A DNA stretch of 17,882 nt from Deltaproteobacteria bacterium (GTDB taxonomy: Bacteria > Desulfobacterota_E > Deferrimicrobia > Deferrimicrobiales > Deferrimicrobiaceae). The notes under the pieces are model-generated. The model was not told the origin of the DNA. It saw only the letters and a list, made by a program, of their open reading frames with translations, and ran no database searches. The translations under genes and the position numbers were made by a program. Of this stretch, positions 4,720 to 17,882 are shown in pieces (the stretch's first letter is position 1; each line of letters opens with the position of its first letter). The stretch lies in assembly GCA_023488945.1 (NCBI GenBank), contig JAMDBZ010000024.1, positions 7,734 to 25,615 on the forward strand, written 5' to 3'.

Positions 4720-4819
4720 GGCCTTCCGCGCTCGATACATTCCCCGCAACTACGCTCGCCGTGCCGCTCCCCTCGCTTTCGCACACATCGAAGGGGAACG
4801 CATCTGCGCGCGTCCGGCC
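4720..4819 (-). repeat. Intergenic repeat, copy C (inside the fad operon)
   Basis: This is an inverted copy of the element at 12-144. The 27 bases at 4793-4819 are the exact complement of 12-38 and 151-177, and 4720-4745 match the other end of copy A. It is about 33 bases shorter in the middle than copy A. It fills most of the gap between the dehydrogenase/hydratase and thiolase genes, so if those are co-transcribed it is part of the mRNA. Confidence 0.7.
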
Positions 4820-9166: not shown

Positions 9167-9339
9167 TCGCACCTCCTTCGCGGCATCCTTCGCCGCGCAC
9201 GACACATGATGGGCCATTGGAGCACACGCGGCGCGATCCGGTCAATCGACCCCCCGCGGAAGATAGACGGACCGCAGCCGGCCGTTATTCAGATGACCTT
9301 CGTTGGAACGGAATTGCCGACCGCCACCGTCGTTTCCGA

Positions 9340-9345
9340 TATAAT
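9340..9345 (+). promoter_or_regulatory. Perfect -10 TATAAT directly before the HD-GYP gene
   Basis: TATAAT ends nine bases before the ATG at 9355, so transcription would begin about three bases before the start codon. No -35 at normal spacing is convincing; TTGCCG at 9314-9319 is 20 bases away. There is no ribosome binding site before the ATG, consistent with a leaderless or near-leaderless message. Confidence 0.5.
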
Positions 9346-9354
9346 TCCTCCAAT

Positions 9355-10761
9355 ATGGTCGCACCGGCGCAAATCGAGGCCAACGGGTCGAGGCTGAAGC
9401 GGGGACGGTTCACCCCCGGGATCCGACTCAAGCTCATCGGGTTCCTCCTGCCGCTCCTCTTCCTGGCCATCGCGGGGGTGGCGGCGGCGGTCATGACGAT
9501 CACCGAGGGGACGGTCCGCCAGGACCTTCTCCAGCGGGGCGTCGCGATCTCGCGGGTCGTGGCGTTCTCCGCGGCCCATTCCCTCCTCTCGGATGACCGG
9601 CTGGCCCTCCACAGCCTCACGGCCGAAACGAAGGAAAGCTCCCGCGGCATCGAGTACGTGGCCGTGCGGGACATGAACGACAACGTCCTGGCCCACAGCC
9701 GGGTCGAGCTCCTCGGGACGCATTTCCGTCCGCCCGACCGGTCCGTCGACCTGGGCCGCTTCGGCGAGACGCAGGCGGCGGACGTCCTTCGGAACGGCCG
9801 CCCCATGATCGAGTTCACGACCCCCATCCTGTTCGCCGGAAAGCGTGTCGGCGCGATCTCCCTGGCCCTGTCCCAGGAAAGCCTTCTCCTCGCGCAGCGC
9901 CACGTCCGGCGCTCGATCCTGATCGCCGCCGTGGGTTCCCTGGGCGCCGCCTTCCTCGGCGCGCTGGCCCTCGCCTCGCTCATCACGACCCCCGTCAAGC
10001 ACCTCACCTCGGGGGTCGGCGAGCTGGCCGGCGGCAAGATGTTCCACCCGATCCCGGTCCGGTCCGGCGACGAGCTCGGGGACCTGACGCACAACTTCAA
10101 CCGGATGGCGGAGACGATCCTCGACCAGCAGGACCGGCTCCGGCGCTACGCGCGGGAGCTCGAGGAGGCGTACATCGGGCTGGTCCGGGTCATCGCGGCG
10201 TCGATCGACGCCCGCGATCCCTACACGCTCGGGCACTCCACCCGGGTCGCCCGGTTCGCGTGCGGACTGGGAAAGCGGATCGGCCTCCCGGAAGAGGAGA
10301 TCGACCACCTCGAGAAGGCGTGCCTCTTCCACGACGTCGGAAAGATCCGGACGCCGGACAACGTCCTCCTCAAGGGGCAGCCGCTGGAGGCCCGGGAAAT
10401 CGACGTCATGCGGAACCACCCGGTCGACGGCGCGGAGATCCTCGGGCTGGCCCCCTCCCTGCAGCGTTACATCCCGGCCGTGCTTTACCACCACGAGTGG
10501 TATGACGGAAAAGGTTACCCCGAGGGACGCCGCGGCGCGGAGATCCCGCTGCCCGCCCAGATCATCGCGCTCGCGGACGCGTACGACGCAATGACATCCA
10601 CGCGACCCTACCGCCAGGCCCTCATCACGGAGGAAGCGGTCGAAGAGATCCTCTCCTGCCGGGGCACCCAGTTCTCCCCGCAACTGACCGACGCCTTCGT
10701 CCGGATGGTCCGGGAGATTCCCACGATCGATACCGAGGACTTCAGAGGGCTGGCGCTTTGA
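9355..10761 (+). CDS. Membrane HD-GYP phosphodiesterase with HAMP domain
   Basis: This 468-residue inner-membrane sensor probably hydrolyses the second messenger c-di-GMP. TM1 (about 27-50) and TM2 (about 186-210) flank an extracytoplasmic sensor of about 135 residues. A HAMP linker (about 211-263) and short coiled coil lead to the HD-GYP domain (about 275-455). The metal and catalytic motifs are intact: GHS at His294, HDVGK at His326-Asp327, His355, and HHEWYDGKGYPEG containing the GYP signature (387-389). The ATG at 9355 is chosen because the hydrophobic segment follows at a normal distance and the upstream extension is non-homologous. The next gene overlaps its stop codon by four bases, so the two are translationally coupled. 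No diguanylate cyclase is present nearby. The stimulus is unknown. Confidence 0.92.
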   Translation: MVAPAQIEANGSRLKRGRFTPGIRLKLIGFLLPLLFLAIAGVAAAVMTITEGTVRQDLLQRGVAISRVVAFSAAHSLLSDDRLALHSLTAETKESSRGIEYVAVRDMNDNVLAHSRVELLGTHFRPPDRSVDLGRFGETQAADVLRNGRPMIEFTTPILFAGKRVGAISLALSQESLLLAQRHVRRSILIAAVGSLGAAFLGALALASLITTPVKHLTSGVGELAGGKMFHPIPVRSGDELGDLTHNFNRMAETILDQQDRLRRYARELEEAYIGLVRVIAASIDARDPYTLGHSTRVARFACGLGKRIGLPEEEIDHLEKACLFHDVGKIRTPDNVLLKGQPLEAREIDVMRNHPVDGAEILGLAPSLQRYIPAVLYHHEWYDGKGYPEGRRGAEIPLPAQIIALADAYDAMTSTRPYRQALITEEAVEEILSCRGTQFSPQLTDAFVRMVREIPTIDTEDFRGLAL

Positions 10762-11366
10762 GGCGCGCCTCCCGGCGGACGTTCGCCGCCGCCCTGGCGG
10801 CGGCCCTGGCGCTGGCGGCGTTCCCCTCCTGCTCCCGCCTGAAGAGCCTCCTCCCCCGCGAGGAAGCCCCGCCCCCCGCCGCCGCGCCCGCCGACCGCGT
10901 CTACGCGGAAGGGGCGGCCGCCCTGCTGAAGGGAAACCCCGAGCGGGCCCTCGAGCGGTTCGCGGAGGCGTGGAAGGAGAACCCCGGGCATGCCGGCGTC
11001 CTTCAGGATTTCGACGAGGCGCTCAACGCGCTCAAGAAGGCCGGCGACGAAGCGTACCGCGCCGGGCGATACGAGCAGGCGGGGCGGTCGTGGACGAGCG
11101 CGCTTCAGTACCTGGGGCACCCGGCCGCCAGGGCGCACCCCCTCCCGTTCACGAAGGCGGGCCTCCAGGCGAAGATCGACAGGATGACGACGGCGCTGAT
11201 GGAGAAGGCGATCGTCGACTACCGGCAGGGGAACATCGAGGGGGCGATCGCCCTGTGGAAGACGATCCTTTCGTACGACCCGTCCCACAAGGAGGCGAGC
11301 CAGTCGCTCAAGACGGCCACCACCCAGCTCGAAAACCTCAGGAAGATCCCGCCGCCGGCGAAGTAA
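10758..11366 (+). CDS. TPR-type lipoprotein
   Basis: This 202-residue protein has a lipoprotein-like N-terminus: arginine-rich start, Ala/Leu core and AFPSC with Cys25 as likely lipidation site. The lipobox is non-ideal because Phe and Pro precede the Cys. The rest is alpha-helical with tetratricopeptide-like units around residues 46-80 (AEGAAALLKGNPERALERF), 95-120 and 150-185 (YRQGNIEGAIALWKTIL, then YDPSHKEA). These suggest a protein-interaction scaffold in the periplasm. Translation starts at TTG (10758), overlapping the HD-GYP stop as TTGA, with GAGGG about eight bases upstream. Co-translation suggests it works with the HD-GYP sensor, perhaps modulating its periplasmic domain. This is inference. 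Confidence 0.82.
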   Translation: MRRASRRTFAAALAAALALAAFPSCSRLKSLLPREEAPPPAAAPADRVYAEGAAALLKGNPERALERFAEAWKENPGHAGVLQDFDEALNALKKAGDEAYRAGRYEQAGRSWTSALQYLGHPAARAHPLPFTKAGLQAKIDRMTTALMEKAIVDYRQGNIEGAIALWKTILSYDPSHKEASQSLKTATTQLENLRKIPPPAK

Positions 11367-12222: not shown

Positions 12223-12609
12223 ATGAGTAGCGGATGGCGGTCGATATCGACGGCGTTGGTGCTGCTGGCGGCAGCTTTCCTGCCGTTTGCCGGCGGCAAG
12301 GCGACTTATGCGGCAAGCCAAAACCTTGTCGAATTGCACAGGAACGCCGGGAAGCTTTCCAACAAGGAATGCCTCTCCTGCCATGCGGACATCACAAAGG
12401 CGGTCACCCTGAACAAGAAGTTCAAGACCTTCCACAGGCTCCACCTGGAGTCGAAACTCGATACCCCGAAGAAATGTTCGGATTGCCACCAGTCCGTCGA
12501 TCTGCGGGAAGGGTCCGCGGCCGCGTTGCGGAAGCAGGTGGACCCCGGCATTTGCGCGGATTGCCACAGCGGCGGCGTAAAAGGCGCCAAAGTCTTATTC
12601 GCGAAATAA
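12223..12609 (+). CDS. Exported triheme c-type cytochrome
   Basis: This 128-residue periplasmic electron carrier has a signal peptide at about residues 1-30 (hydrophobic core, cleavage near TYA). Three covalent heme sites CxxCH follow: CLSCH (50-54), CSDCH (85-89) and CADCH (111-115). Exactly three other histidines remain (His39, His71, His74), enough to give every heme a second His ligand, as in low-potential class III/c7-like cytochromes. AAAGGAGG precedes the ATG with ideal spacing. The molybdopterin oxidoreductase gene starts 11 bases downstream, so the cytochrome most likely passes electrons to or from that enzyme. No membrane anchor is seen, so it would have to interact with another quinol-linked protein encoded elsewhere. 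Confidence 0.88.
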   Translation: MSSGWRSISTALVLLAAAFLPFAGGKATYAASQNLVELHRNAGKLSNKECLSCHADITKAVTLNKKFKTFHRLHLESKLDTPKKCSDCHQSVDLREGSAAALRKQVDPGICADCHSGGVKGAKVLFAK

Positions 12610-12620
12610 GGGAGGGTCCG

Positions 12621-14951
12621 ATGGCGGAAAGAAGAACGATCCCGAAAGAGGAACAGGATCTTTTCGAACAGGCCACCGGGAAGAAGTTCTCCCGGAGGGA
12701 TTTTCTCAAGTGGACCTCCGGGCTTGCCGGGGCGGCGATCGCCAGCGGGCTGATCTGGGACGGAAAGCTGGGGCTTTTCCGGGAGGCCCGCGCGCAGGAG
12801 AAGATGGCCGGAAAGGGGAGGTGGATTTACACGACTTGCCAGATGTGCGGCGGGACGTCGGGGATCAAGGTTCACGTCGTCGACGGCAAGGTCGTCAAGA
12901 TCGAGCCGAACGAATACAACCCGATCGGCGTCGCCAATATCTCCACGGATTACGCAGCCCAAAAAGCTCTCGGTGGGAGGATGTGCGCGAAGGGGAATTC
13001 CGGCGTCAGGGCGCTCTATGATCCCGACCGTTTGAAAACGCCGATGAAAAGAATCGGCCCGAGAGACTCCGACCGGTGGAAAGCGATCTCCTGGAAAGAG
13101 GCGCTTGACGAGGTTTCCGGGAAGCTTCTGGAGATCCGTGAAAAGCATGGTCCCGAGAGCCTTTTCTGGTGCACCGAGGATTCCTCGTTCACCGACATGC
13201 AGTCGGACTTCAACCTCCTCTACGGCTCACCCAACTTTTCCATGCACTCCAACACTTGCGACGTGGCGCGCAAGGCGTCGTTCAAACTGGTGATGGGTGA
13301 CGACCGCCCTCTTGCCGACTTCGCCAACACCAAATATGCGCTGGTCTTCGGCTGGAACCTCCTCGCGGCCACGAAATGGGCCCTTCTCCCCGGCGTCTGG
13401 AACCTGGGCCGTGCGCGGGGCGCCAAGATGGTCTACGTCGATCCCTTCTATAACCAGACCGCCGCCAAGGCGGACGAATGGATCCCCATCCGGCCCGGAA
13501 CCGACGGGGCGTTCGCTCTTGCGCTTGGCCACGAGATCGTGAAGAACCGATGGCAGGACGAGGAGTTCATCCGGGATTACACGGTCGGATTCGATAAATA
13601 CGTGGACTTCGTGAAGGACAAGACCCCGGAATGGGCCGAGAAGATCACTTCCGTCCCGGCGGAGACCATCCGGAGGGTCGCCAAGGAGCTTGCCACGACG
13701 AAACCGGCCGTTGTGGATGTGTGGAGCGGTCCCGGGCATCACACAAACGCCACGGACGGGGGGAGGGCGATCGCCATGCTTCCGGCCCTCCTGGGGCAGT
13801 ACGACAAACCCGGCACGATGATCAGTCGTCAGGCCATGGGCGGAAAACGTCGGGCGTTCAATGTCGACAAGCCGAAAGCCCCGAGGATCGACGGCCTTGG
13901 AACGAAGTATCCCTTCGCCCACGTGTCGGGGATCTACACGGAGACGAGAGATTCGATGCTCTCCGGGCAGCCTTACCGGCTCCGGGCCGGGGTGTTCATG
14001 TTCCAGAATTTCGTGATGTCCGTCCCCAACACGCAGAAGAACATCGAGGCCCTCAAGAAGCTTGACTACATCGTCGTTCTCGACACGATGATGAGCGAAA
14101 CGGCACGGTTGGCCGACATCGTCATCCCGGGGAGCCACTACCTGGAGCGATGGGAGGTGAACGTGAACTGGGTCACCTTCCCGGCTACCGCAATCAGGCA
14201 ACCTGCCGTCAAATCGGTGATCAACGGGATGACCGAGCAGGAGTTCATTCTCGCTCTTGCCAGGAAGATGGGTCTCAAGGACAAGGATGGGAAGTCCCTT
14301 CCGGACACCTATCCCGAGTACATCAGCGACCAGTTGAAAAACGGTCCCATCGGGAAAACCCTGGACGAGATGCTTGCCCTTCCCGGCGGCGTGTTCATCG
14401 GCGGGGGAACCCAATACGAAAAATACAGGAAAAACGGCTTCGGGACACCGTCAAAGAAGATCGAGTTCTTCTCGGAACAGATGGAGAAGAAAGGGCTCAA
14501 TCCCTTGCCGGATTACGTGGAGCCGGTCTACAAACCGACATCCGGCTTCCCCCTCTACCTCGTGAATTACAAGCAGGCCGAGCATACGCATTCGAGGACA
14601 TTCAACAACGACTGGCTCATGGAGATGAAGCCGGACAACCCCCTTCTCATCAATGCGGCGACCGCGGCCCGGCTCGGTGTCAAGGACGGCGATCCCGTCT
14701 GGCTGGAATCCCCTTACGCGAAGGCGAAAGCCACGGTCCGGGTGACGGAACGGATTCATCCGGAAGTCGTCGCGCTGCAACATGGCTATGGCCACTGGGG
14801 ATTCGGGAAGGTTGCAAGGGGGGCACTGAACAAGATCAACACGTGGTGCCCCGCCGGAACGGCGGACGGCATGTTCCTCGCGGGCGTGTCCGAAAAGGCA
14901 TCGGGGATGGCCGTTCACAAGGAAATCGGCGTCCGCGTCACCAAGGCCTAG
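12621..14951 (+). CDS. Tat-exported molybdopterin oxidoreductase, catalytic subunit
   Basis: This 776-residue protein belongs to the DMSO reductase superfamily (molybdenum or tungsten bis-MGD) and is closest in style to the Psr/Phs/Ttr/Arr branch. A Tat motif SRRDFLK (24-30), after an unusually long polar N-terminus, and a hydrophobic stretch direct it to the periplasm folded. The iron-sulfur region has Cys73, Cys76 and Cys122, but the expected third cysteine is Ser80 (CQMCGGTSG). Cys213 in HSNTCDVARKA is the likely molybdenum ligand. WSGPGHHTNATDGG, near residue 370, and the C-terminal molydopterin dinucleotide-binding domain (from about 640) are in place. The ribosome binding site is GGGAGGG. 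It is flanked by cytochrome and ferredoxin-like subunit genes. The substrate is unknown; sulfur, arsenic or selenium oxyanions are possibilities. Confidence 0.9.
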   Translation: MAERRTIPKEEQDLFEQATGKKFSRRDFLKWTSGLAGAAIASGLIWDGKLGLFREARAQEKMAGKGRWIYTTCQMCGGTSGIKVHVVDGKVVKIEPNEYNPIGVANISTDYAAQKALGGRMCAKGNSGVRALYDPDRLKTPMKRIGPRDSDRWKAISWKEALDEVSGKLLEIREKHGPESLFWCTEDSSFTDMQSDFNLLYGSPNFSMHSNTCDVARKASFKLVMGDDRPLADFANTKYALVFGWNLLAATKWALLPGVWNLGRARGAKMVYVDPFYNQTAAKADEWIPIRPGTDGAFALALGHEIVKNRWQDEEFIRDYTVGFDKYVDFVKDKTPEWAEKITSVPAETIRRVAKELATTKPAVVDVWSGPGHHTNATDGGRAIAMLPALLGQYDKPGTMISRQAMGGKRRAFNVDKPKAPRIDGLGTKYPFAHVSGIYTETRDSMLSGQPYRLRAGVFMFQNFVMSVPNTQKNIEALKKLDYIVVLDTMMSETARLADIVIPGSHYLERWEVNVNWVTFPATAIRQPAVKSVINGMTEQEFILALARKMGLKDKDGKSLPDTYPEYISDQLKNGPIGKTLDEMLALPGGVFIGGGTQYEKYRKNGFGTPSKKIEFFSEQMEKKGLNPLPDYVEPVYKPTSGFPLYLVNYKQAEHTHSRTFNNDWLMEMKPDNPLLINAATAARLGVKDGDPVWLESPYAKAKATVRVTERIHPEVVALQHGYGHWGFGKVARGALNKINTWCPAGTADGMFLAGVSEKASGMAVHKEIGVRVTKA

Positions 14952-14963
14952 GGAGGGGCGTCC

Positions 14964-15539
14964 ATGTCGAAGAATCCGAACCAGATCGGTTGGTACTATA
15001 ACGAAAACAACTGCATTGCCTGCCGGGCCTGCGAGGCGGGGTGCAAACAGGAATTCGATCTCCCCGCGGGGGTCAGGCGTCGACGGGTGATCATCCGGGA
15101 GTCCGGGAAGTATCCGAACCCGAAGGTCCGATACATCTCCTCGGCGTGTAACCATTGCGAGGAGCCTGCTTGCATGAAGGCATGTCCGGTGGGGGCGTAT
15201 ACGAAGGAAAAGGAGTTCGGCGTCGTCCTGATCGACCAGGGGAAGTGCATCGGCTGCAGACGGTGCGAGGCCGCGTGCCCGTACGGCGCCCCCACGTTCG
15301 ACGAGAAAAAGAAGAAGATGGACAAATGCACCCTTTGCCACCACAGGCTCAAGGCGGGGTTGCCGCCCGCATGTGTCAGGACCTGCATGGGTTATGCGCT
15401 CTGGCATGGAAAGCTGACCGACATCACGGCGCAAACGACCCCGGAGGAAATCTACAGGAGACCTTTGGTCGAAGCCCTTCCCGGTTTTGCCGATCCGAAG
15501 CTGACGAGACCGTCGGCAAGATTCTCGGAGAACAAATGA
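14964..15539 (+). CDS. Four-cluster [4Fe-4S] electron-transfer subunit (DmsB/PhsB-like)
   Basis: This 191-residue protein is the usual partner of DMSO reductase-family catalytic subunits. It has sixteen cysteines in four groups: 17/20/23/27, 62/65/70/74, 95/98/101/105 and 122/125/137/141. This is the full complement for four [4Fe-4S] clusters in the DmsB/NrfC arrangement. It has no signal peptide, so it is probably exported by the Tat system as a complex with the catalytic subunit. A strong GGGAGGGG ribosome binding site precedes the ATG, 12 bases after the upstream stop. In most relatives the next gene encodes a NrfD- or DmsC-like membrane anchor. Here that gene is absent and a chaperone gene follows. 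Confidence 0.92.
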   Translation: MSKNPNQIGWYYNENNCIACRACEAGCKQEFDLPAGVRRRRVIIRESGKYPNPKVRYISSACNHCEEPACMKACPVGAYTKEKEFGVVLIDQGKCIGCRRCEAACPYGAPTFDEKKKKMDKCTLCHHRLKAGLPPACVRTCMGYALWHGKLTDITAQTTPEEIYRRPLVEALPGFADPKLTRPSARFSENK

Positions 15540-15547
15540 GGAAAGCG

Positions 15548-15574
15548 CCGGGGGCGGGGATCACCCGCCCCCGG
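15548..15574 (+). promoter_or_regulatory. Perfect 11-bp GC hairpin inside the operon
   Basis: CCGGGGGCGGG (15548-15558) and CCCGCCCCCGG (15564-15574) pair perfectly around a GATCA loop. It begins nine bases after the iron-sulfur subunit stop and ends just before the chaperone start. Without a T-run it is not a classical terminator. It may protect the 3' end of the structural-gene mRNA or lower expression of the downstream genes. Confidence 0.7.
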
Positions 15575-15588
15575 ACCGCGTGTTCCGG

Positions 15589-16167
15589 ATGACGACGAGC
15601 GGAGAACTCTCCCGTTCCTTCGGCGTGTTGGGCAGCATGTACCTTTGCAAGCCCACGAAGGAGGCCGTTGCGGACTGGCGGCCCCTCCTTCGGGAAGTCG
15701 CTTCCCCCTTCCTCAAGGAGCTGCGTGAAACCCTGGGCCGCATCCATCCGGATTCGGAGCGGGAGATGGAGGACCTTCTCTGGGACTACACGAAGCTCTT
15801 CCTCGGCCCCTACAGGCTGCCGTGCCCCCCCTGGGAATCGGTGTACACCTCTCCGAAGAGGCTGTTGATGCAGGAAGCCTACGATGCCGTATCGGACTTC
15901 TATCGACAGGCCGGCCTCTCGATCGGGGATCCCAACGTGCTGCAAGACCATGTCGGGGCGGAACTTTCCTTCCTGGCGGTCCTTTACGGGAAGATGGAGA
16001 CGGAGCCTTCGAACGCGCCCCATCACAAGGAGCTTGCGGAACGGTTCCTCGCGGAACATCCGCGGAGATGGATCCCCGCCTTTTCCGTGGACATGGAGAA
16101 GGCGGCGGATACGGAATTCTACAAGGTCCTGGCCAGGGCGACCCGGGATCTGATCGCGGCGCGATGA
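15589..16167 (+). CDS. TorD-family molybdoenzyme chaperone
   Basis: This all-helical cytosolic chaperone of about 192 residues binds the Tat signal and apo-form of a molybdoenzyme until cofactor insertion. Family landmarks are the acidic helix plus YTKLFLGPY segment, LPCPPWESVYTS (ExxY-type loop), and the DHVGAELSFLAVLY helix corresponding to the conserved D-H-xx-x-E-L-x-F motif. The length is typical. The start is ambiguous: ATG at 15589 or an in-frame GTG at 15580, and neither has a good ribosome binding site because a strong hairpin lies immediately upstream. Its client is presumably the catalytic subunit encoded 600 bases upstream. The gene ends 13 bases before the transporter gene. Confidence 0.87.
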   Translation: MTTSGELSRSFGVLGSMYLCKPTKEAVADWRPLLREVASPFLKELRETLGRIHPDSEREMEDLLWDYTKLFLGPYRLPCPPWESVYTSPKRLLMQEAYDAVSDFYRQAGLSIGDPNVLQDHVGAELSFLAVLYGKMETEPSNAPHHKELAERFLAEHPRRWIPAFSVDMEKAADTEFYKVLARATRDLIAAR

Positions 16168-16180
16168 AAGGGATCGCGTG

Positions 16181-17410
16181 ATGCTCGTCGACCCCTATCG
16201 GAGGGTGACGGTGCGGCCCGTGGGGAGGAGGTTCCGGCTCGATCTCAACGAAATATCCGGGTCCATTGGGGACCTGGCGACCTTCCTTCCCCTGGCCATC
16301 GGCCTGATATCCATCAACGGGGTGAACGCCACCTCGCTCTTCCTCTCCACGGGGCTGGCCTACATCGCGGCGGGCCTCTATTACGGGCTGCCGATGCCCG
16401 TTCAGCCTCTCAAGGCGACGTCGGCCATCGCCATCGCCCTGGCCGTCGGCCCGGATGCCGTCTCCGCGGCGGCTTTCTGGATGGGCGTCATCTTCATCCT
16501 CCTGTCGCTGTTCGACCTGAGAGGAATTTTCGGCAGGATATTCACCCGCCCTATCGTGAGAGGGATCCAGCTCGGGTTGGGCGTCCTGCTGGTCAAGGGG
16601 GGAGGGAAGGCGATTTTCCGAGGGAGCGACCCGGCGATCGCCGGCATGGCAAGCTCCCCGGTCCTCTACGCAGTCGCCCTCGCCATCGGCAGCGCGGGGA
16701 TCCTCTTACTCTCCCGGAAAAGCCGGCGGTATCCCGCCGCCCTGGCGGTGACGATCTTCGGACTGCTCTGCGGATTGCTGGCGAGCTCTTCCGGGGCGCT
16801 GTCGTCCCCGGCCATGGGCTGGATCGCTCCAAAATGGGGAGTCCCGGCCGATGCGGACCTCTACACGGTCCTCGTCGTTCTCCTCCTCCCCCAGATCCCC
16901 CTCACGTTCGCCAATTCCGTGGTCGCCACGGCGGAGACCTCCCGCCAGTACTTCGGGGAAGGGGCACGGCGCGTCACGATCCGCAGCCTCTCCGCATCCC
17001 TGGGGTTCGCCAATCTCTTCGCGGGGCTGATCGGCGGGATGCCGGTGTGCCACGGCTCGGGGGGGCTGACGGCCCATTACCGTTTCGGAGCGAGGGGCGG
17101 CGGGGCAAATCTCTTCATCGGGGGGCTGTTCGTCGCCCTGGCCCTTCTGTTCGGGAGATCGATCCCGGAGATCTTCGGACTGCTGCCCTCGCCGGTCCTC
17201 GGGGTCCTCCTCGTCTACGTCGGGTTCGAGCACGCCCGGCTGATCAGGGACGTGTTGGAGGTTTCCCACGAACTGGCGGTTGCCCTGAGCATCGGGATCA
17301 TGACCCTTCTCACGGGGAACCTGGGCATCGCCTTCATGACCGGGATCGTTTTGAACGCGATCGGCGGGAAACTCCTCAAACCGATGATCCAAGGAGATTC
17401 GCCTCGATAA
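16181..17410 (+). CDS. MOT1-family molybdate transporter
   Basis: This inner-membrane protein of about 409 residues has some ten hydrophobic segments and resembles the MOT1 molybdate transporters, distant relatives of SulP permeases without a STAS domain. The two signature regions are PVQPLKATSAIAIA (73-86) and MPVCHGSGGLTAHYRFGARG. ATG at 16181 and an adjacent GTG at 16178 are both possible starts, preceded by AAAGGG. It probably imports molybdate (or tungstate or sulfate) for the cofactor of the oxidoreductase upstream. Its presence in this operon beside mobB supports molybdate over sulfate. Its 3' end overlaps the convergent mobB by 35 bases. Confidence 0.85.
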   Translation: MLVDPYRRVTVRPVGRRFRLDLNEISGSIGDLATFLPLAIGLISINGVNATSLFLSTGLAYIAAGLYYGLPMPVQPLKATSAIAIALAVGPDAVSAAAFWMGVIFILLSLFDLRGIFGRIFTRPIVRGIQLGLGVLLVKGGGKAIFRGSDPAIAGMASSPVLYAVALAIGSAGILLLSRKSRRYPAALAVTIFGLLCGLLASSSGALSSPAMGWIAPKWGVPADADLYTVLVVLLLPQIPLTFANSVVATAETSRQYFGEGARRVTIRSLSASLGFANLFAGLIGGMPVCHGSGGLTAHYRFGARGGGANLFIGGLFVALALLFGRSIPEIFGLLPSPVLGVLLVYVGFEHARLIRDVLEVSHELAVALSIGIMTLLTGNLGIAFMTGIVLNAIGGKLLKPMIQGDSPR

Positions 17411-17882
17411 AATCGGCGATGCTTCGCGGGTCGTTCAGGTTCAGGACCGGCACGTCCAGTTCCAATGGTTCGTCGCTGGCGACGGCAATCAGCCCGGGAT
17501 CGTTGTAATCTCCCCTGCAGAGAAGAGGATCGTTCCTGCCTTTCCGGTGAAGCTCGATCTTGGGAAGGGTGCTCCGGCTGAACCCCTCGACAAGAACGAT
17601 ATCCATGTCGGAGAAATAGGTCTGGACGAGCTCCTCCGCCGAGGGGGCCTCGGAATGATTTTTCACGAGGGCCATCTTTTCGGCGGAGGCGATCAGCATC
17701 GTCTCCGCGCCCGCTGCGGTAAGGCGGTGGCTGTCTTTGCCCGGATTGTCAATGTCGAACCGATGAGCATCGTGTTTCAACGCCCCGACGCGGAAGCCGC
17801 GGTTCAGAAACTCGGGCAGCAGTCGTTCCAGCAAGGTGGTCTTCCCCGTACCGGATCGAGCGACGAAGGCCACGGCCTTAAC
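17376..17882 (-). CDS. mobB: Molybdopterin-guanine dinucleotide biosynthesis protein MobB (5' end cut by window)
   Basis: This P-loop GTPase assists conversion of molybdopterin to the guanine dinucleotide form (bis-MGD) needed by DMSO reductase-family enzymes. The P-loop reads ARSGTGKTT, with Ala where the first Walker A glycine usually stands. Other family features are LKHDAH, DIDNPGKDSHRL, DIVLVEGFS and PKIELHRKG. The reading frame continues to the window edge with VKAVAF before the P-loop. The true start is therefore probably just beyond 17882 rather than the internal GTG at 17873. It is convergent with the transporter gene, overlapping its 3' end by 35 bases. About 165-175 residues is normal for MobB, so little is missing. 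Confidence 0.9.
   Translation of the reverse strand, partial: VKAVAFVARSGTGKTTLLERLLPEFLNRGFRVGALKHDAHRFDIDNPGKDSHRLTAAGAETMLIASAEKMALVKNHSEAPSAEELVQTYFSDMDIVLVEGFSRSTLPKIELHRKGRNDPLLCRGDYNDPGLIAVASDEPLELDVPVLNLNDPRSIADFIEANLLGSSV

Follow-up and report, generated by a model that had tools for sequence, protein, structure and literature searches.

The window analyzed here is a stretch of 17,882 nucleotides from a contig assigned to a Deltaproteobacteria bacterium (JAMDBZ010000024.1), and it ends in a cassette of genes for a secreted triheme cytochrome, a molybdopterin catalytic subunit, an iron-sulfur (Fe-S) subunit, a TorD-type chaperone and two molybdenum-related proteins. Our comparisons suggest that the product of the cassette is probably a soluble respiratory reductase of the periplasm, from a lineage not described before; it would be fed by its own cytochrome, and its most likely substrate is arsenate. 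A wider proposal, to which we give close to an even chance, is that this is an undescribed arsenate reductase family, distant from ArrA, that has replaced ArrAB behind an ArrX-type sensor in part of the Nitrospirota, has taken on a dedicated triheme cytochrome in place of the quinone-reactive membrane subunit, and is also present in metagenome-assembled genomes (MAGs) that carry the labels of several other phyla. For the window itself, the arsenic reading rests on orthology, since its catalytic subunit is 81–87% identical to those of loci L001–L010, and much of the evidence below comes from such relatives (loci are numbered with L, genomes with G).

Relatives of the cassette and their sensors

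Scanning the species genomes of bacteria and archaea yielded 33 cassette loci, all but two of which are labelled MAG or uncultured (L012 is Nitrospiraceae bacterium Ngb-4); three further loci were added, and 27 have a catalytic identity of at least 53%. The recorded taxon labels are Nitrospirae, Deltaproteobacteria, Proteobacteria, Armatimonadetes, Planctomycetota and Eisenbacteria, and one close homologue of the catalytic subunit is named Candidatus Sulfobium mesophilum. Among the best 120 homologues listed, 48 are 78–100% identical (the window's own included), 72 are 57–62% identical and none lies between; the high identity of the 48, and their length of nearly always about 776 amino acids (aa), rule out a chance arrangement. 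Among the 27 loci the cytochrome gene is present in 22 of the 23 that have 500 bases upstream (it is missing in L020), the Fe-S gene in all 25 with 700 bases downstream, and the TorD gene in all 23 with 1500 bases downstream (the L020 match is weak). An NrfD-like gene lies within 3.5 kb in one of the 27 only (L021), on the opposite strand and accompanied there by separate Fe-S and molybdenum genes of its own, and the relatives would thus speak against an NrfD gene just beyond the window edge. The original prediction had described a periplasmic molybdoenzyme that lacks an anchor and has a triheme cytochrome of its own; this description is supported, and the order of its four-gene core is kept in other genomes.

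Upstream of many relatives is a module (XSR) of genes for a PF12974 periplasmic binding protein (X), a histidine kinase (S) and a sigma-54 regulator (R). An X gene of the ArrX/AioX type is found within 10 kb of 11 of the 18 testable cassettes (those with at least 5 kb of upstream DNA), and in 8 of these 11 the module is on the same strand and ends about 0.2–0.6 kb before the cytochrome gene (L003, L004, L008, L010, L011, L013, L022 and L074). AioX, ArxX and ArrX are arsenic-sensing proteins with a pocket formed by Tyr88, Cys106, Tyr131, Ser161, Ser163, His192 and Asp210, and the pocket Cys is not present in PhnD (PMC5908839, accessible part). The best match of the L003 X protein in the PDB is ArrX (6x6b, E 7e-50), followed by AioX (about 1e-39). 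A cysteine equivalent to AioX Cys106 is present in 13 of 15 X-like proteins near cassettes, together with Ser or Thr at 163 and Asp or Glu at 210; the Cys-less proteins are that of L007 and the second one of L022, and the L021 protein is cut by its contig piece. The 13 Cys-bearing proteins form one clade with AioX, ArxX and ArrX (support 99/98), and PhnD, TtrS and the two Cys-less proteins fall outside it. Sensing of the TtrS type was considered for X and rejected: all the pocket residues are absent from an E. coli TtrS sensor, and no Cys is present in two PhnD proteins. The Cys-less genes, at 11234–14919 in L022 and 10923–12113 in L007, are PhnD-like and lie downstream; the one in L022 is accompanied by genes for a kinase, a regulator and another molybdoenzyme. 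Arsenic-type molybdoenzyme or ars genes are present in the neighbourhoods of all six top-ranked plasmid relatives of X that were inspected (L042, L043, L048, L049, L052 and L053); two control plasmid neighbourhoods are phosphonate transporters. Finally, sigma-54-like sites before the cytochrome gene have a combined p of 0.0013 in nine XSR loci and of 0.13 in 13 other loci, with random stretches of the same loci as the reference (single-letter shuffles give smaller, too lenient p values).

Close homologues of these sensors accompany true ArrA in some Nitrospirota. The cassette family is present in 19 of 395 Nitrospirota genomes (E ≤ 1e-150), and three of these members (G046, G055 and G242) are more distant and have Fe-S and NrfD genes beside the catalytic gene; the other 16 are anchorless, and the anchorless form thus has anchored cousins. 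Anchored sister forms were also seen at L023 (4497–8475), L076, L077 and L078, where catalytic relatives at about 45–47% identity adjoin Fe-S and NrfD-type genes; L076 also has an ArsA homologue. A two-domain X (at least 367 bits) is encoded in 52 of the 395 genomes, namely 13 of the 16 with the anchorless cassette (an enrichment with p 3.5e-10), 18 of the 32 in which a protein query found ArrA, and 21 with neither. Cassette and ArrA occur together in none of the 395, and among the 52 genomes with X the division into 13 with the cassette only, 18 with ArrA only, none with both and 21 with neither has a p of 0.002. The ArrA model NF041714 gave no match over 30 genomes, but 14 control genomes were equally silent.

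We inspected 34 X neighbourhoods in Nitrospirota genomes without the cassette, made up of the 16 best-scoring X genes and 18 from the X genomes with neither enzyme. Of the 34, 12 (all among the first 16) have a true ArrA gene on the same contig at a distance of at most 8 kb, which is a tally of places and not a rate; nine of the 12 are within the span, three were placed by coordinates, and six directly follow XSR. In the first 16 places X is 63–80% identical to the L003 X protein, and ArrA, where in span, is 45–55% identical to solved ArrA. In a quick tree of 49 X rows the proteins beside ArrA (9 of 9) and beside the cassette (8 of 9) are intermingled in a 27-row clade (SH-aLRT, an approximate likelihood ratio test, 91), the sensors of L013 (cassette) and L093 (ArrA) are sisters at 100, and 7 of 9 X proteins with a TtrA-like partner lie outside that clade. 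The plain reading of these sequences is that one sensor type would drive ArrAB in some species and the cassette in others. A third type of molybdoenzyme, that of Azoarcus KH32C, was seen near XSR and ars genes at L043 (6866–9505), L074 (from 828) and L108 (6916–9477); enzymes of this type form a 100/100 clade with 85/77 kinship to the TtrA-like enzymes.

Homologues of ACR3, ArsA, ArsC, ArsD, ArsM or ArsR are encoded within 10 kb of 5 of the 27 cassettes (L005, L006, L012, L013 and L021). NCBIfam models exceed their cut-offs for ACR3, ArsD and ArsA in L005, ArsD in L021, an arsenite methyltransferase in L012 and a metalloregulator in L013; ArsC of L005 stays below its cut-off, and the L021 ArsA passes the broader GET3/ArsA model only. 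ACR3 is above cut-off in 19 of 30 genomes, mostly as a single copy, and is within 10 kb of the cassette in four of the 30 (G005, G006, G013 and G021) against 0.16 expected, a statistic that was conceived after the neighbours had been seen, counts G021 (just below the family cut-off) and ignores contig ends. It had been suggested that the substrate may be new; the arsenic-type sensor modules and ars genes beside the relatives suggest arsenate instead. A new substrate is thus not required, and the novelty would lie in the enzyme lineage.

Placement of the catalytic subunit and the cytochrome

No NCBIfam model reaches its cut-off for the catalytic subunit among the 25 listed of 27 matched, with scores against cut-offs of 442.4/694 bits for PhsA (NF012032), 293/778 for DmsA/YnfE, 242.1/1600 for ArrA (NF041714), 205/440 for QrcB and 134/1750 for TtrA (NF011567). 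A profile search of the PDB with the catalytic family gave 360 bits for Thermus PsrA, 255 for ArrA and 249 for acetylene hydratase. In a tree of 34 proteins (16 family rows, and ArrA, TtrA-like and KH32C-type rows among the others) the family is its own 100/100 clade outside PhsA/PsrA (96/83), ArrA/ArxA (100/100), TtrA, DmsA and acetylene hydratase, so that no known clade with an assigned substrate takes in the catalytic subunit. Cut-off and tree together rule out both its filing as PhsA/PsrA, in line with the automatic name 'thiosulfate reductase/polysulfide reductase chain A', and its filing as ArrA, though its regulation and neighbours look Arr-like. The Cys motif is HSNTC or HSNLC in the family, HSSxC in ArrA and ArxA, SVSLC in PsrA and HASTC in PhsA; the family motif thus seems to resemble that of ArrA/ArxA more than that of PsrA, which is weak evidence. 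The AlphaFold model of the subunit (mean predicted local distance difference test score 57.5) was too poor for a fold search and was not used. The accessible part of PMC10100899 reports lineages without assignment close to the PsrA/PhsA and AH groups, and that of PMC9751629 gives no description of the cassette; no account of the family as an arsenic enzyme was found in the literature searched, most subscription papers being outside it.

The cassette cytochrome has three CXXCH motifs and exactly three further His residues. In 25 aligned rows (the window and 24 relatives) the six His columns are filled in all 25 and three CXXCH motifs are present in 24, with five in L019. A bis-histidine (bis-His) c7-like cytochrome therefore fits these proteins, and cytochromes of the c7 family are expected to be of low potential. 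NapC/NrfH-like proteins are above cut-off in 19 of 22 cassette genomes; many of the matches are weak or partial, and this result is permissive only. TtrA-like enzymes behind XSR at L086 (1739–6210) and L103 are preceded by other small triheme cytochromes, in which the distal His pattern seen in the cassette is absent.

Layout of the cassette in the window

All six genes are present where the original prediction placed them (Table 1), and the claimed absence of an NrfD- or DmsC-type gene is borne out by a tblastn search of the window, to position 17882, with seven NrfD/PsrC/TtrC/DmsC-type proteins, which gave no match at E ≤ 1e-4. The gaps between successive genes from cytochrome to MOT1 are 11, 12, 40 and 10 bases, which suggests a single transcript of these five genes; mobB is convergent with MOT1 and overlaps its end by 35 bases. 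The catalytic subunit has an RR pair at residues 25–26 and matches the TAT_signal model at 22.1 bits (cut-off 22.7); the Fe-S subunit has no signal of its own.

Table 1. Genes of the cassette, with positions in the window.
Feature	Position	Strand	Basis
Triheme c-type cytochrome, secreted, c7-like, proposed electron carrier	12223..12609	+	128 aa, hydrophobic N-terminus, 3 CXXCH, Pfam Cytochrome_C7 PF14522
Molybdopterin catalytic subunit, Tat-type, Cys-ligated (HSNTC motif), of a DMSO reductase-superfamily lineage so far undescribed	12621..14951	+	776 aa; Molybdopterin, Molydop_binding and Fe4S4 domains
4Fe-4S electron-transfer subunit, four-cluster	14964..15539	+	16 Cys in four groups of four
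TorD/DmsD-type maturation chaperone	15580..16167	+	PF02613; DmsD model 55.6 bits, below cut-off 162
MOT1-type molybdate transporter	16178..17410	+	PF16983, E 6.6e-49
MobB, molybdopterin guanine dinucleotide biosynthesis adaptor	17376..17882 (reaching window edge)	-	PF03205; TIGR00176 144.1 bits, above cut-off 76.2

Conservation is uneven toward the downstream end. MOT1 is within 10 kb in only 4 of the 27 loci (L003, L007, L016 and L029) and MobB-like genes are found in L003, L007, L017 and L019, so that the six genes have no fixed order. Some molybdenum-cofactor gene is nevertheless within 10 kb in 17 of the 23 loci with enough downstream DNA. The original prediction, which is partly supported as a whole, thus holds for the cytochrome-catalytic-FeS-TorD order and for the bundling with cofactor genes; the MOT1-MobB part of the order is variable, and the bundling with molybdate uptake is confined to few loci. 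A recurring downstream set, not complete everywhere, encodes an FmdE-like protein, a LysR-type helix-turn-helix protein of about 113 aa (perhaps ModE-like) and a MoeA-like domain protein (L003, L004, L010, L012, L022, L027, L028 and L075; also L081, L103, L104 and L108). It follows cassette, ArrA, TtrA-like and KH32C-type operons and is likely a molybdenum-cofactor module.

To the left of the cassette are genes for a tetratricopeptide repeat protein, an HD-GYP sensor, HemW, fatty-acid oxidation, O-acetylhomoserine sulfhydrylase and a sigma-54 regulator, which have no bearing on its function. The HD-GYP protein (9217–10761) has a single-cache (sCache_3) sensor and a HAMP domain, the same cache/HAMP type as the S kinase of XSR modules. 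Over half its length the window's FadB shares 79% identity with a protein of G011, the genome of cassette locus L011, which XSR directly precedes; the source of the window is therefore probably a deltaproteobacterial relative of L011. An exact 30-base direct repeat lies at the left end (10–39 and 149–178), with an inverted copy about 4.6 kb away (4780–4819; 27 bases exact, 40 bases at 90%), and it looks like an intergenic repeat element. Rfam gave no match within the window, and promoter and terminator scans of it showed no excess over shuffles.

Proposed electron path, alternative substrates and known systems

The catalytic and Fe-S subunits would fold with cofactor in the cytoplasm under TorD control, the molybdenum cofactor being supplied via MOT1 and MobB, and would then exit together by the twin-arginine translocation (Tat) route. 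Electrons probably pass from quinol through a membrane dehydrogenase to the triheme cytochrome, and from there through the Fe-S subunit and molybdenum to the substrate. In this scheme a separate quinol dehydrogenase (NapC/NrfH or another membrane complex) would reduce the bis-His triheme cytochrome, which would stand in for the NrfD anchor and feed the Fe-S subunit, and As(V) would be reduced to As(III) at the molybdenum site. In the relatives the periplasmic ArrX-like protein, the histidine kinase and the sigma-54 regulator would control the operon, and the ars genes beside some copies would remove arsenite.

A number of observations count against arsenate as the substrate. The window itself has no XSR, no ars gene and no sigma-54-like site before the cytochrome gene; no X lies within 10 kb of 7 of the 18 testable cassettes, and 22 of the 27 have no ars gene in the DNA read, many of these loci being short. 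The catalytic subunit scores nearer to PsrA than to ArrA and is not in the ArrA/ArxA clade; forcing the two together costs 10 log units and is weakly rejected by the approximately unbiased (AU) test (p 0.029). The lack of overlap between cassette and ArrA in 395 genomes is not significant alone, since about 1.3 joint genomes are expected, and only the test within the X genomes carries weight; related genomes are not independent, and the co-occurrence p values are uncorrected for kinship. Lastly, the other X neighbourhoods among the 34 hold TtrA-like enzymes (9), a KH32C-type enzyme (1), Fe-S/NrfD/multihaem sets (3) or no molybdoenzyme in span (9), and the X proteins beside those non-ArrA enzymes share the same pocket; the counter-reading would make XSR a general oxyanion module.

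The main rival is a sulfur enzyme, that is, an anchorless thiosulfate, polysulfide or sulfur reductase, or a disproportionation enzyme of the MolyABC ('MOLY cluster') kind, that uses periplasmic cytochromes. The characterized enzymes nearest in sequence to the catalytic subunit are indeed PsrA and PhsA, and the MOLY cluster as described in the accessible part of PMC12998232 comprises A, B and TorD in Desulfobacterota and lacks a gene for a membrane anchor; molyA genes occur singly in Nitrospirota. We nevertheless think a sulfur substrate unlikely: the family is separate from PhsA/PsrA at 100/100, its regulatory slot and ars neighbours are of the arsenic type, and molyA of the relevant group is given in that part of the paper as present in all Thermodesulfovibrionaceae, whereas the family is in only 19 of the 395 Nitrospirota genomes. 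Less probable still is a reductase that acts on some other oxyanion or metalloid, such as antimonate, selenate, tellurate or tetrathionate, under an XSR with changed X specificity. Modules with the same pocket residues do stand beside TtrA-like and other molybdoenzymes, and pocket residues alone do not set selectivity (PMC5908839, accessible part); however, cassette X proteins intermingle with those on the ArrA side, most TtrA-partnered X proteins fall outside their clade, and ars genes adjoin five cassettes. An Arx-type arsenite oxidase working in the reverse direction, with electrons leaving via the triheme cytochrome, is very improbable: AioXSR and ArxXSR are regulators of arsenite oxidases, the X protein of L001 groups with an ArxX (98/99) and Aio islands can include a cytochrome c gene, but in the Nitrospirota the partner of the sensors is ArrA, which works reductively, the low potential expected of a c7-like bis-His cytochrome would suit donation to arsenate, and the cassette has neither ArxB' nor NrfD.

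Arsenate respiration mobilizes arsenic into groundwater, and surveys of it rest on arrA. If arsenate is the substrate of the cassette enzyme, this lineage would escape arrA primers and models, and arsenate respiration would be underestimated in Nitrospirota as well as in some deltaproteobacterial, armatimonadotal and planctomycetal MAGs. The lineage would also be a clear example of a respiratory molybdoenzyme whose NrfD anchor has been exchanged for a cytochrome, as anchored relatives at about 45% identity exist.

Among known systems, PhsABC and PsrABC contain the best-scoring characterized relatives of the catalytic subunit (about 31–33% identity), but they have a membrane subunit (phsC in L044) and no cytochrome gene, and their clade excludes the cassette enzyme; the cassette differs from these two, and from TtrABC and DmsABC, in having no anchor gene, both in the window and in the relatives. 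The MOLY cluster MolyABC is like the cassette in gene content (A, B and a TorD-type chaperone, with no transmembrane anchor, in anaerobes); it is proposed for sulfur disproportionation, and the accessible part of PMC12998232, with which the comparison was by description and not by sequence, mentions no cytochrome or XSR. The Arx islands ArxB'ABCD (L042 and L049) share with cassette loci an XSR in front of or divergent from the molybdoenzyme, and ars genes (L042), but have an extra Fe-S protein (ArxB'), an NrfD-type ArxC and a catalytic subunit of the ArrA/ArxA clade. DmsEFAB(GH), PcrABCD and ArrAB-CymA are respiratory molybdoenzymes of other catalytic families that use c-type cytochromes instead of a membrane anchor subunit, and none of them is known to have the triheme cytochrome of the cassette. 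ArrAB with ArrXSR shares with the cassette a catalytic subunit, an Fe-S subunit and TorD, an XSR in front (in part of the cassette's relatives), an HSxxC Cys ligand and, in Nitrospirota loci that show the stretch after ArrB, no adjoining anchor gene; unlike ArrAB, the cassette has a catalytic subunit that is only about 27–29% identical to ArrA and forms a separate 100/100 clade, and it adds a dedicated triheme cytochrome.

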